Of a stretch of DNA of 47,914 nucleotides, positions 15,684 through 47,914 are shown piece by piece (position 1 is the first letter of the stretch; every line of letters begins with the position of its first letter). The translations under genes and the position numbers were made by a program. The stretch comes from Phycisphaera mikurensis (lineage in GTDB: Bacteria; Planctomycetota; Phycisphaerae; WQYP01), in NCBI GenBank assembly GCA_022730455.1, contig DZDI01000007.1, positions 1 to 47,914 on the forward strand, written 5' to 3'. The notes below the pieces were generated by a model. That model worked only from the letters and a program-made list of their open reading frames with translations. It was not told the origin of the DNA and made no database searches.

Positions 15684-16431
15684 CAAACTTAATCCAAATC
15701 ATGCATCGTCGTCCATCACATTGCTCATTGTAGGGGATTCCATCACGCTGGGCGTGGCGGATATGCGTGGTAACGATGTTTTGGCATATGTTGATCGCTC
15801 CTACGTGGATATCATTCGAGAGCAGTTTCCTCAAGTGGTCATCAAGGTCGATGCCGATCTGCATCGGTCAACCATTGGCGGATCACAATGTCTGCCACCA
15901 CTACTGGCGGCACACAGACCGCAAGTAACTCTGTTGATGCTGGGCGGCAATGATGCCGACCCTGATTGGAAACGTTTTGTTGTAAGCAATGGCCGTGTGG
16001 CACGCAGTCGCATTGAGTTATCGCGTTATGTCGAAAATGTGCGAGTCATGGTGGAAATGGTACGGACAGCGGGCTCAATACCCATATTGGCGGATATCCC
16101 GAATCAGTACCTGGACAGGCGCAACAAAGTGTTGTCAGCATTGGCTGGCCGTGATTTGACGTCGATGATTGCCGCCAACGGAGGCGAACAATTTTGCAAC
16201 AGAATGCTGGAAACATACCGCGAAGCGGTGGCTGCCCTGGCTGGCGATTTGACCGTGCCATTGGTGGCCTATGGTCATCGGCTAGCCCAACAATCGCTTG
16301 AGGATGTCGTGGGGCCTGATGGCGTCCATCCGAGTTCATTGGCACATGGTATCATCGCCGCGCAGGTGATCATCACTCTTAAGCCTATTATCAGAACACT
16401 CAATGCATCATTTGCCGGTGCGTCCATTTGA
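15673..16431 (+). CDS. SGNH/GDSL-family hydrolase or acyltransferase
   Basis: The 252-residue protein has the SGNH blocks: block I VGDSITLG with the Ser nucleophile, a glycine block, block III LGGNDAD with the Asn, and block V DGVHPS with the catalytic Asp and His. Such enzymes add or remove O-acyl groups on glycans and lipids. No signal peptide is visible, so it is probably cytoplasmic. The GTG at 15673 is preceded by GAGG about 6 bases away and lies inside the end of the PaaK-like gene. Its stop TGA overlaps the TTG start of the next gene, so these three are translationally coupled. Activation by the PaaK-like enzyme followed by acyl transfer here is an attractive but unproven link. Confidence 0.8.
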   Translation: MSFNKLNPNHASSSITLLIVGDSITLGVADMRGNDVLAYVDRSYVDIIREQFPQVVIKVDADLHRSTIGGSQCLPPLLAAHRPQVTLLMLGGNDADPDWKRFVVSNGRVARSRIELSRYVENVRVMVEMVRTAGSIPILADIPNQYLDRRNKVLSALAGRDLTSMIAANGGEQFCNRMLETYREAVAALAGDLTVPLVAYGHRLAQQSLEDVVGPDGVHPSSLAHGIIAAQVIITLKPIIRTLNASFAGASI

Positions 16432-16814
16432 ATCCGTCATCCTCAAACAAACCGTTGCTGCTGATTGGACTGATTTTGGCGATTCTACTGGATACTGCCG
16501 TTCAGTTATGCTGGAAAGCGGCGGAACCGCGTCAGGCCACACCTGGCGGCGTCATATTCGCCACCATCACAAATCCATGGTTTGTCGGTGTTGCTGTCTT
16601 GATGGTGTGCCAGTTGTTTAACTGGATGATGGTACTCAGCGTCGCGGATGTCAGTTTGGCACAACCGATTACCGCACTCGGCTATGTTACGGTCGCCGTA
16701 ATGTCGTTCGTGCTCTGGCATGAGACGCTTACTATCGAGCAGACCGTCGGTGTGGGGAGCATCCTTGCTGGGGTGGCGCTGGTGAGCCAGACGCATAGGA
16801 GTTTGGCCAAATAA
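16428..16814 (+). CDS. Small DMT/SMR-type membrane protein, first of a pair
   Basis: The 128-residue protein has four hydrophobic helices and belongs to the drug/metabolite transporter superfamily (EmrE/ArnE/ArnF-like half-EamA proteins). The last helix region, PITALGYVTVAVMSFVLWHE followed by a GxxLAGVAL motif, is characteristic. With the second SMR gene it probably forms a heterodimer; the ArnE/ArnF pair flips an undecaprenyl-linked aminosugar across the inner membrane. The TTG start (16428) overlaps the preceding stop and has no separate ribosome site. The last five residues and the stop codon (AGG AGT TTG GCC AAA TAA) lie within the terminal inverted repeat of an inserted MITE-like element, so the original C-terminus may have been altered. 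Confidence 0.78.
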   Translation: MNPSSSNKPLLLIGLILAILLDTAVQLCWKAAEPRQATPGGVIFATITNPWFVGVAVLMVCQLFNWMMVLSVADVSLAQPITALGYVTVAVMSFVLWHETLTIEQTVGVGSILAGVALVSQTHRSLAK

Positions 16815-17078
16815 TAACAGGACTGCGACGGCATGATTTTCGGCGGACATCAAGAAGCGGCGACGAGGGCGTATCTGGAGAAAATGATACGCCGCAGAAG
16901 CCGCGCCGCGGAGGCTGGGCGAAAGGCACGCCTCCGTCCCGGGGGCGAACCGGAAACGCCTTGTCTGCGGCGTTCTCGGGTATCAACGACTCATCTTCAC
17001 CAGAGTCGTCGGCCCGTTGTCTGGCATCCGGAGCGTTTCCGGCACATCGCAGCCTTGCGATTAGTTGGACGGATTTCC
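16798..17078 (+). mobile_element. MITE-like repeat, copy A (about 280 bp, terminal inverted repeats)
   Basis: Non-coding element bounded by imperfect inverted ends: AGGAGTTTGGCCAAATAATA at the left, and the right end, whose complement reads GGAAATCCGTCCAACTAATC. It aligns along its whole length with the reverse complement of 44761-45034. Shared blocks include GCATCAAGAAGCGGCGACG (one difference), an internal hairpin (GGCGTATC...GATACGCC), CTGCGGCGTTCTCGG and GCATCCGGAGC. No transposase is encoded. It separates the two SMR genes and supplies the stop codon of the first. This copy is more diverged at both ends than copy B. Confidence 0.8.
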
Positions 17079-17104
17079 AGGGCATACAGGATGGAGGAAA
17101 AAGC

Positions 17105-17461
17105 ATGAATCCACTTGGGGTCACTACCCTGACGGCCGCTATATTACTTGAGATATGCGGACAGTTATGTATGAAGCGGGCGATGAGCCAGCCCGTAGAG
17201 AGCTTTCGCGACGCTCTCCGGCGGGTATGCACCAACCATTGGCTGCAAGTGGGCATTTCAGCCTTCCTGATCGAAGCCGTCTTCTGGACGTGGACACTTT
17301 ATCTGGTACCTCTGAACATCGCGTTTCCGATGGGTTCGTTGTGCTTTGCTGGAGTGGCGGTCGGTGCGGCCTACTTCCTGCATGAGCCGATTTCGCGCAT
17401 CCGATGGCTGGGCATTGCAATGATTCTTCTGGGCGTGGTATTGTTAGGCGTGAGGCTCTGA
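17105..17461 (+). CDS. Small DMT/SMR-type membrane protein, second of a pair
   Basis: The 118-residue, four-helix membrane protein is of the same DMT/SMR class. It has LLEICGQLCMKRAMSQPV at the first helix, a central W-T-x-T-L-Y-L-V-P-L-N-I-A-F-P motif, and a C-terminal IRWLGIAMILLGVVLLG helix. The segment 'VPLNIAFPMGSL' is the part most like EmrE/ArnE-type lipid-carrier transporters. The ATG at 17105 follows a strong GGAGGA; in-frame sequence further upstream lies in the MITE-like element and is not coding. It ends 8 bases before the next glycosyltransferase start. It probably pairs with 16428-16814 to form a heterodimeric flippase or exporter; the substrate is inferred only from neighbours. 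Confidence 0.8.
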   Translation: MNPLGVTTLTAAILLEICGQLCMKRAMSQPVESFRDALRRVCTNHWLQVGISAFLIEAVFWTWTLYLVPLNIAFPMGSLCFAGVAVGAAYFLHEPISRIRWLGIAMILLGVVLLGVRL

Positions 17462-27433: not shown

Positions 27434-27489
27434 CGCATGCGGGGCGTTTTCGGCACATTGCAGCCCTGCTATTTCTTGGACAGACTCCT
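27434..27489 (+). repeat. Terminal fragment of the MITE-like repeat (third copy)
   Basis: GCATGCGGGGCGTTTTCGGC and the following bases down to TTGGACAGACTCCT match the right ends of the two full copies (16798-17078 and the complement of 44761-45034). The rest of the element cannot be traced to the left, so this is a degraded solo end. It lies in the 489-base gap between rimO and the PEP-CTERM gene, just upstream of that gene's predicted promoter. Confidence 0.6.
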
Positions 27490-34955: not shown

Positions 34956-35000
34956 CTAGTGCTCCGTCAATCCTAATTTGTAGGTGTGACAGAGCACTAG
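34956..35000 (+). repeat. 45-bp palindromic element with TAGTGCTC ends
   Basis: The sequence runs from CTAGTGCTCCGTCA to TGACAGAGCACTAG, so both ends are inverted copies, with CCTAATTTGTAGG in the middle. Its complement matches the start of 47871-47914 over about 34 bases with one difference. It lies in the 80-base gap between the ABC ATPase and its permease. Ends of this type with a flanking TA are seen in IS630/mariner-related MITEs, so it may be a minimal internally deleted element. Confidence 0.65.
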
Positions 35001-44541: not shown

Positions 44542-44661
44542 GGCTTCGGTCATGGTCGGGCTACCGACGGCACCGGACCGAGCAAGCTTATGGCTGCTTC
44601 CTTCCGGACCTGACCAAGTTCACAGCCGACCCGTGCATCGGGCCCGACCATGACCGAAGCC
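44542..44661 (-). ncRNA. ffs: Signal recognition particle RNA (4.5S, ffs)
   Basis: On the minus strand a 20-bp perfectly complementary helix joins 44661-44642 with 44561-44542. It encloses the conserved domain IV hairpin: GGTCAGGTCCGG, the GGAA tetraloop region, then GGAAGCAGCC. This is the hallmark of bacterial SRP RNA, which binds Ffh and guides membrane proteins to the translocon. The total length of about 120 nucleotides fits the short bacterial type without an Alu domain. The ends are set by the outer helix and may be a few bases longer. It is convergent with pgi. Confidence 0.93.
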
Positions 44662-44702: not shown

Positions 44703-44760
44703 CGTACCTGTCAAGGTTAATGGTGCGATGGCGCAGAGAAGTATGTGTTATTTTATAGAT

Positions 44761-45034
44761 AGGAGTCTGTCCATGTAATAGCAGAGCTGCGATGTGCTGG
44801 AAATGCTCCGGATGCAAGGCGTCGGGTCGACGGCCACTCTGGTGAAGATGAGTCCGAGAACGCCGCAGACGGGGTGTTTGCGGCACACCCTCCGGGCGGC
44901 ACGTCTTTTGACCGGCCTCTGCGGCGCGGCTTCCTCGGCGTATCATCTTCGCCCGATACGCCCTCGTCGCCGCTTCTTGATGCCCGCCAAAATCTGTGCC
45001 GTCGCAGTCCCTGTTATTACTTGGACAGGCTCCT
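44761..45034 (-). mobile_element. MITE-like repeat, copy B (274 bp, well-kept terminal inverted repeats)
   Basis: The ends are AGGAGTCTGTCCATGTAATA and, as complement of the other end, AGGAGCCTGTCCAAGTAATA. These differ at only two of 20 positions. A TA dinucleotide can be drawn at both borders (TA|GGAG...CTCC|TA), as for IS630/mariner-type target duplication. The body aligns with copy A (16798-17078) in reverse orientation, including the GGCGTATC/GATACGCC hairpin. No transposase is encoded. It lies between the SRP RNA and aroC, ending 29 bases before the aroC start. Confidence 0.82.
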
Positions 45035-45063
45035 AGGCCATAGTAAAAGAGGAAAATGAAAAA

Positions 45064-46224
45064 ATGGCAACTTTGTCATATCGCACAGCAGGCGAATCGC
45101 ATGGCCCGGCTCTCGTCAGCATCGTAGAAGGTTTACCCGCCGGTCTGTCACTGGATATGGACGTAATCAACGGTGAACTAAGGCGGCGGCAGGGGGGATA
45201 TGGACGGGGCGGTCGACAAAAAATTGAAACAGATACGGTAACATTTCTTACCGGCGTGCGGCGCGGGCAAACCATTGGATCGCCGGTAACCATAGAGATC
45301 AAAAATCGAGACTCGCGCTTAGATGACACACCGGCGCTTGTAAAACCGCGCCCGGGACACGCCGACCTAGCCGGAGCCGCTAAATGGCTCAGTACCGATT
45401 GCCGTGAAACCCTTGAACGCGCCAGCGCTCGCGAAACGGCGAACCGGGTGGCGGTTGGGGCGATCGCTAAATGCCTGCTTCGAGCGTTTCACATTCAGGT
45501 CGTGGGGTATGTTACACGTATCGGCATGGCGGCGGCTAACGTTGATGGGGCGGCATCGGCCGAAAACCTGCTCGCAGGTGTAATGAATAGCGAAGTTTAC
45601 TGCCCGGACGTAGCCGCCAGCCAGAAAATGATTGAAGTCATACGTGAAGCCAAGGTTCAAGGCGATACGCTTGGTGGAATTGTAGAAACACGGGTGTTTG
45701 GCTGTCCCGTCGGGCTGGGCAGTTGTGCCCACTGGGACATGAAACTCGATAGCCGAATCGCCGCCGAGGTGATGGGGATTCAGGCAATCAAGGGCGTTGA
45801 GATAGGCATTGGATTTCAAGCGGCCATGCTACCGGGTTCAGAGGTGCATGATCCCATCGAATTCGATCCAAAACAGCGGAACTCACCAAATTTGGGATTC
45901 ACGCGCCCAACTAATAACGCCGGTGGCCTGGAGGGGGGCATGACCAATGGCCAGCCCGTGGTGGTGCGGGCCGCCATGAAGCCCATCAGCACATTGCTCA
46001 AAAAACCCATGCCCAGTGTTGACCTGAATACCAAACGGGCGGATAAGGCTGATTACGAACGCAGCGACGTGTGTGCCGTACCTGCAGCCGGGGTGGTCGT
46101 TGAAAATGTGATCGCCTTTGAAATTGCCCGCAGCATGGTCGAAAAATTTGGCGGCGACTCCATGACTGAGATGCAGACCAATTATCGGAATTATATAAAG
46201 GCTGCCGCCGCGCTAGGACAATAA
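45064..46224 (+). CDS. aroC: Chorismate synthase
   Basis: AroC converts 5-enolpyruvylshikimate-3-phosphate to chorismate with reduced FMN, the last shared step of aromatic amino acid synthesis. The 386-residue protein starts LSYRTAGESHGPALVSIVEG and has RRRQGGYGRGGRQ, RASARETANRVAVGAIAK, and a C-terminal block (RADKADYERSDVCAVPAAGV). All are family signatures. GAGG lies about 10 bases before the ATG. The MITE-like copy B lies 29 bases upstream, so the aroC promoter must be inside or beyond that repeat. No other shikimate genes are nearby. Confidence 0.96.
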   Translation: MATLSYRTAGESHGPALVSIVEGLPAGLSLDMDVINGELRRRQGGYGRGGRQKIETDTVTFLTGVRRGQTIGSPVTIEIKNRDSRLDDTPALVKPRPGHADLAGAAKWLSTDCRETLERASARETANRVAVGAIAKCLLRAFHIQVVGYVTRIGMAAANVDGAASAENLLAGVMNSEVYCPDVAASQKMIEVIREAKVQGDTLGGIVETRVFGCPVGLGSCAHWDMKLDSRIAAEVMGIQAIKGVEIGIGFQAAMLPGSEVHDPIEFDPKQRNSPNLGFTRPTNNAGGLEGGMTNGQPVVVRAAMKPISTLLKKPMPSVDLNTKRADKADYERSDVCAVPAAGVVVENVIAFEIARSMVEKFGGDSMTEMQTNYRNYIKAAAALGQ

Positions 46225-47870: not shown

Positions 47871-47914
47871 CTAGTGCTCTGTCACGCCTACAAATTAGGA
47901 TTGATTGGCCGCAA
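47871..47914 (+). repeat. Edge of a TAGTGCTC-type repeat, cut by the window end
   Basis: The sequence starts CTAGTGCTCTGTCACGCC and continues CTACAAATTAGGATTGA. It matches the complement of 34956-35000 over about 34 bases with one difference, then diverges (TTGGCCGCAA). The other end lies beyond the window. It is probably the terminal part of a larger element of the same family. Confidence 0.6.

Follow-up and report, generated by a model that had tools for sequence, protein, structure and literature searches.

The evidence supports a mobile repeat as the source of the last five residues and the stop codon of SMR1, a gene for a small membrane protein, and as the cause of a 290-nt separation between SMR1 and its overlapping partner, SMR2. 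The window, which is the whole 47,914-nt stretch of DNA analysed here, belongs to a 3.2 Mb genome (G000) assembled in 394 contigs and 93% complete. Its features are listed in Table 1. We consider it highly probable that a MITE related to IS1182 inserted in the ATGA-overlapped SMR1-SMR2 pair, replaced the tail of SMR1 and split the pair, and that insertions of this family at 3' ends are tolerated.

Table 1. Features of the window discussed in the text
Feature	Position	Strand	Remarks
SMR1	16428-16814	+	128 aa, listed start TTG; final residues and TAA from the repeat; ArnE/EamA-like (predicted EmrE-like fold) small membrane protein
Copy A of the MITE	16797-17078	+	Right end at about 17078, degenerate
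Left terminal inverted repeat of copy A	16797-16816	+	R-S-L-A-K-TAA encoded at 16797-16814
Probable remnant of the old SMR1 tail	17076-17108	+	Old frame ..AYRMEEKA-stop; TGA overlaps the SMR2 start; left edge approximate
SMR2	17105-17461	+	Second EamA-like small membrane protein
Third-copy fragment	27435-27489	+
Copy B of the MITE	44760-45035	-	TA on both sides

The new end of SMR1

The left end of copy A reads AGGAGTTTGGCCAAATAATA, and the SMR1 ORF continues through it as ..QTH-R-S-L-A-K-TAA. The last five residues and the stop are the first 18 nt of the repeat end, counted from 16797, and the A of the TA junction is the first base of the Arg codon. The first-pass annotation had reported this overlap, which was confirmed in the 128-aa ORF, and had correctly given the copy B counterpart, which reads AGGAGCCTGTCCAAGTAATA on the minus strand from 45034. 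The span it assigned, 16798-16833, does hold the repeat end, which starts at 16797 or 16798, and the stop, at 16812-16814, but the remainder is element interior.

SMR1 matches at E 1e-5 or better were found in 18 of the 150 genomes searched, the window's own genome included. With the weak, partial match of G040 left out, 16 other genomes were compared. Three of them (G001, G002 and G003) belong to the same genus and carry no insert at SMR1. The proteins of these congeners resemble that of the window as far as T122-H123(-R124) and no further. The three insert-free tails differ from each other (..THRSEANP-stop, ..THKIGTAGKPV-stop and ..THRPQAGGMPSSQAS-stop), the gene ending ..SRTHRSEANP-stop in G001, ..SRTHKIGTAGKPV-stop in G003 and ..SRTHRPQAGGMPSSQAS-stop in G002. 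None of the 16 orthologues ends in SLAK-TAA, and at residues 125-128 agreement with the window falls to 16% of orthologue cells, from 52-56% in the body of the protein. The proposal that an insertion rewrote the C-terminus was thus upheld by the orthologues, since similarity ends at the junction and a remnant resembling the old tail lies beyond the element. No insert-free relative with more than about 80% protein identity was found among the genomes searched. G001 has one repeat end in its whole genome, which is the control level.

Another possible explanation is that SMR1 ended here originally and that the repeat merely adjoins it downstream, matching its end by chance. G001 does have T-H-R-S in common with the window before diverging, but the stretch from GG to TAA is only 3 of 17 positions off the consensus of 116 ends from the same genome, and the tails of the 16 orthologues differ. 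The same tag also ends seven other ORFs of this genome, which already contradicts a chance match, and we regard this explanation as extremely unlikely.

The SMR1 stop is a TGA that overlaps the partner's ATG (ATGA) in 13 of 16 orthologues; in G002, SMR1 ends in TAA and the arrangement differs. In the window, the SMR1 stop ends at 16814, the SMR2 ATG is at 17105, and 290 nt lie between them. The sequence before this ATG, ATG GAG GAA AAA GCA TGA, reads MEEKA-stop in the old frame, with the TGA overlapping the ATG. It is the probable displaced tail of SMR1 together with the old ribosome-binding site of SMR2, an argument that uses the remnant pattern alone. GAG stands four codons before the TGA in the window and in 10 of 12 orthologues shown, a set from which the three lacking ATGA were excluded, as was G026, which is nearly identical to G015; GGG is found in 2 of the 12. 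Orthologue tails with GAG at this place include SEANP-stop, LEEHP-stop and AENAA-stop. The conservation of GAG could come from the SMR2 ribosome-binding site alone. Copy A is flanked on the right by AG, not TA, and its right end is degenerate, so a target-site duplication cannot be shown for it. The exact reading frame of the empty site was dropped as evidence, with the right boundary uncertain by a few bases and an indel in the right end. In G010 (L045) and G017 (L044), SMR1 and SMR2 form a single fused chain of 327 aa, which would fit a heterodimer.

Taken as a course of events, the SMR1 stop and the SMR2 start would have overlapped as ATGA before the insertion. Copy A, a non-autonomous MITE, would then have entered the CA-TA site that is seen near the 3' end of SMR1. 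SMR1 now reads into the terminal repeat and ends after RSLAK, and the ATGA junction and a matching remnant of the tail are left beyond the element.

The effect of the new tail on the protein is probably small. The SMR1 model (mean pLDDT 84) gave EmrE and Gdx-Clo as its six best PDB matches, with TM scores by target of 0.58-0.78, a best E of 0.043 and none at 0.001, and an EmrE-like helical fold is predicted. A sequence profile search found NIPA2 alone, weakly. Scores against EamA (28.1, cut-off 28.2) and ArnE (41.4, cut-off 92) stayed under the curated cut-offs of Pfam and NCBIfam, and no Multi_Drug_Res match was listed among the curated family models; SMR2 is also under its Pfam cut-off. The initial label of SMR is therefore in agreement with the predicted fold but not with curated family membership. 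Pfam similarity covers SMR1 up to residue 120. The last predicted helix spans 103-127, its final residues being modelled with low confidence, so that the fold has probably been spared and the predicted helices remain. Because the changed residues lie where this helix closes, the protein would still work. The cost, if any, may be the loss of translational coupling between SMR1 and SMR2 and a long hairpin between the two cistrons.

It had also been suggested that the end of copy A diverged from copy B under selection on the coding sequence, a view that found no support. Set against the majority sequence of five other own copies, the coding stretch of copy A, from GG to TAA, has differences at 4 of 17 positions, compared to 37 of 250 elsewhere in the element (Fisher p 0.31), and seven other ORFs of the genome keep RSLSK, RSLSM or RSLSE. 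Four or more differences in the first 20 nt were counted in 6 of 116 own ends, one of which is that of copy A, with 4. These data give no sign of special constraint on the coding end of copy A, the sample being small and compatible with weak constraint. A stronger form of the idea is that the new end is maintained as a domesticated C-terminal tag or stop cassette. Two of the three changes from the consensus of own ends are synonymous (CTG to TTG and AAG to AAA, with TCC to GCC nonsynonymous), and the frame is still intact though copy A has diverged. However, differences are not fewer in the coding stretch than in the rest of the element, and SMR1 tails vary freely among orthologues, which makes domestication very unlikely.

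The MITE family and IS1182

The inserted element is a MITE: it is short, occurs in many copies, has terminal inverted repeats (GGAG[TC]CTGTCCA[AT]GTAATA) and carries no transposase gene. Open frames that overlap copy A reach 174 aa at most. A 21-base pattern with up to 3 mismatches found 187 repeat ends in the genome (94 + 93), compared to 0 for the reversed-pattern control, and at least 42 matches to copy A were listed, with 40 of 146 first-look candidates scored. Among 12 own elements with both ends found, six measure 271-280 bp and the others 130-385; in G002, eight of nine paired elements measure 278-292 bp and one 220. Many own copies keep one end, and most of the 15 ends shown have no partner. 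Six loci (L112, L113, L118, L123, L125 and L126) keep one intact end and are broken off inside at varied points. Matching 2-bp flanks were seen in 4 of 12 own paired elements and in 0 of 9 in G002, and none is visible at copy A. A two-base target-site duplication is seen at copy B but does not appear to be general.

Folded as RNA, the element's interior forms a long hairpin at -125.5 kcal/mol (z -3.84), as would be expected of a MITE. An alignment of 21 copies has 85 predicted pairs, 23 of them with at least one two-sided change. No promoter was found inside copy A, and its other strand has one terminator-like site, with 0.4 expected by chance.

Matches to copy B were found in 15 of 61 genomes. 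Outside the window's genome, the best reach 81-93% identity in G003 and 72-78% in G002, two members of the same genus. In the family's other genera most lie at 69-76%, with one G027 copy at 85%, and many of the matches are full length. Searched with a 17-base end and a tolerance of one mismatch, 25 of the 28 genomes of the family gave one or more ends, several at control level. By this count, high numbers were seen in G000 (173), G002 (254), G003 (60) and G016 (56), and six members of genus g3 have 44-104 ends each. A scan of GTDB r220, which may leave out records near the window's genome, found the exact 22-base end in two records, both 'Planctomycetota bacterium' MAGs of the WY1 series.

Several other observations were made at copies of the element. 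Copy B sits between a small SRP RNA gene (44551-44649, Rfam match) and, by eye, an aroC-like start at 45064; a 151-codon ORF at its outer end was rejected as a gene, being by eye antisense to that start. A second inverted repeat, at 34967-35000 and 47871-47904 (34 nt, 97% complementary), ends in ..GAGCACTAG, and sequence similar to it adjoins copy L022 and lies inside the copy on C237. On C115 of the window's genome (18450-19445, L110), two facing element ends are 992 bp apart; the span was considered as a transposase and rejected, its frame being methyltransferase-like by eye.

The ends of the MITE are found on IS1182-family elements of relatives. In G006, a 483-aa transposase lies between two MITE-like ends that are separated by 1731 bp; it scores 348 bits against the IS1182 model (NCBIfam NF033551), above the cut-off of 270. 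A related copy with the same ends and an open frame is present in G015. The copies of G003 and G020 have the same ends and inner stops, and pass the model solely with neighbouring pieces; those of G017 and G027 have the same ends and are in pieces; that of G004 has inner stops, and one of its ends is clear and the other degraded. The terminal repeats of these copies, GGAG[TC]CTGTCC[AG]NNTAA, are like those of the MITE. An IS1182-model match in G024 (C88) lacks such ends, which makes the IS1182 elements with MITE-like ends a subgroup. Whereas G006 has an intact copy, no IS1182 transposase was detected in the window's genome, or in G002 and G016, all of which are copy-rich. The element thus looks orphaned there, unless the gene lies in unassembled sequence. 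Since the ends are common to both, the MITE was most likely once moved by an IS1182-family transposase of the kind apparently encoded by autonomous elements in relatives, outside the window's genome.

Two IS1182 copies from different genera, on C74 of G003 (L209) and C55 of G020 (L210), have equal numbers of inner stops and the same immediate flanks, a likeness due to transfer or bin contamination. The intact copy of G006 (C114, L202) sits where a neighbouring frame of 158 codons ends in TAG (..SSVAN-stop).

Other genes that end in the element

Beside a TA, the element's leading G makes TAG in one frame, and the next frame reads RSLSK-TAA. A landing in a native TAA or TAG would thus remake the stop as TA+G and leave the protein unchanged, and a landing in the neighbouring frame would add the stop-ended tag RSLSK. 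Of the 187 own ends, 116 distinct ones were fetched, 111 with at least 330 nt of flank, and 31 frames of at least 90 open codons run into an end. All 8 ORFs in frame 1 stop at the element's TAA with the ending RSLSK, RSLAK, RSLSM or RSLSE (RSL[SA][KME]), 13 of the 17 in frame 2 stop at the junction codon, TA+G or TA+A, and the 6 in frame 0 stop later. In G002, frame 1 ORFs end in RSLS[KE] in 6 of 6 cases.

Six genes, five of them picked as recognisable, were compared with same-genus orthologues. For DnaA, bL21 and RecG, all in frame 2, the relatives end at the same residue, though the G002 DnaA tail is too diverged to place exactly. Relatives have other tails for the three frame 1 genes, namely SMR1, a glycosyltransferase and a metallophosphoesterase, the last without a G002 match. 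As native stops of DnaA, bL21 and RecG, G003 has TAG, TAA and TAG, G002 has TGA, TAA and TGA, and G001 has TGA throughout. The element seems to sit inside the native stop codons of these genes and to remake them, with a TA target that would follow from the stops of G003 alone, plus that of G002 for bL21.

ORFs supported by known families or orthologues in the two genomes number 14 in frame 2, 6 in frame 1 and 2 in frame 0. Those in frame 1 are SMR1, the metallophosphoesterase, DUF58, a PD-(D/E)XK nuclease (part of the profile) and the glycosyltransferase in the window's genome (5 of 8), and DegT in G002 (1 of 6). Those in frame 0, DEAD and PAP2, are both from G002 (2 of 7, compared to none of the 5 scanned of 6 own). 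Frame 2 therefore holds 14 of 22 supported ORFs (p 0.0035), a rough test, since the scan did not extend to eight more ORFs of frame 2 whose stop comes later or lies out of reach.

Landings at stop codons exceed a rough expectation in two genomes. In the window's genome, 13 of 57 TA-flanked ends sit at ORF stops, compared to 3.9% expected per end (p 2.6e-7). The expectation comes from 185,541 bases in which 889 TA lie outside ORFs, 70 of them in stop codons. The own ends were partly found with a pattern starting with TA, and one of the 13, at copy B, is the antisense ORF. Nine of the 13 ORFs have a Pfam match or orthologues, and 9 of 57 remains in excess (p 3.7e-4). The replicate in G002 used an end pattern without TA, with 54 distinct ends fetched of 254 and 21 of them TA-flanked. 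Junction stops were found at 6 of the 21, compared to 4.5% expected (p 2.6e-4), and five of the six have Pfam support (Sel1, DUF1015, dUTPase, ribosomal protein S2 and EF-P), giving 5 of 21 (p 0.002). In both genomes the background is a simple ORF-based gene model of the regions around repeat copies, and the expectation is rough.

This excess could reflect a target preference of the transposase for CTAG-like sites and not the survival of harmless insertions. CTA precedes all 12 ends of the six two-ended IS1182 copies (two copies share flanks, leaving about 10 independent ends), which hints at such a target; MITE ends often have C at position -3, and the stop-codon landings of both genomes would fit. 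However, the flanks of MITEs are looser, and few elements have matching dinucleotides. At several junction stops the TA follows an A (GGCATA in RecG; GCCATA, CGCATA and CTCATA), although bL21 has CTA. The same excess would also result from selection against insertions that hit promoters and genes. We regard target preference as a rather unlikely explanation. Survival of harmless insertions would be expected if the protein is unchanged or barely changed, so that insertions at 3' ends are tolerated and accumulate.

Known systems and meaning

Published MITEs already include ones that overlap the 3' end of a gene or provide its stop, and the SMR1 case is thus a well-documented instance of a known phenomenon. 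In Coxiella burnetii, according to the portion of the paper available, QMITE1 and QMITE2 overlap the 3' ends of functional genes (ubiB, pntAA, mutT, recN, ruvB and others) by 1-50 bp, and a QMITE gives enhC a 33-residue C-terminal extension in one strain (PMC5896051). They resemble the present MITE in overlapping gene 3' ends but differ from it in sequence and host, and that portion describes no remade stops or frame-by-frame count (PMC5896051). Among the enterobacterial repeats RU-1, RU-2 and RU-3, a repeat replaces the normal stop beyond the conserved domain of the amidase ECA3499, as the insertion does in SMR1, but adds about 34 residues where SMR1 gained 5 (PMC2759123, seen in part). MITEAba12 of Acinetobacter is described, in the accessible part of the source, as fused to a gene 3' end with a new stop and with ends common to a resident IS (PMC6382973). 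It is related to ISAba12 and makes 9-bp duplications, and its gene lost 398 residues, whereas in SMR1 the tail alone changes (PMC6382973). IS1182, among other families, is over-represented between converging genes, by the portion available of PMC9208149. Neither an IS1182-derived MITE of Planctomycetota nor MITEs remaking stops were found among the best-ranked matches of the literature searched, which covered few subscription journals, nor in the available portions of PMC5896051, PMC2759123, PMC6382973, PMC2229807, PMC4495683 and PMC9208149. The remade stop codons in essential genes are the less familiar part.

The SMR1 case shows how a repeat becomes coding sequence and can undo the overlap of stop and start in a membrane-transporter pair, an account that rests on the orthologues without the insert and on the surviving remnant of the old tail. 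Essential-gene ends with the element are those of dnaA, rplU and recG, checked against relatives, and of rpsB and efp in G002, which are candidate native stops. Remaking of stops suggests how repeats reach about a hundred copies in a 3-Mb genome and occupy the ends of essential genes. For annotators of this lineage, C-termini of the RSLSK type are a warning of mobile-element sequence. More tentatively, and with the balance still somewhat against it, the MITE and its IS1182 parents may represent a class of stop-codon-tolerant, perhaps stop-codon-seeking, mobile DNA that spreads harmlessly through the 3' ends of essential genes and splits overlapping operon pairs.
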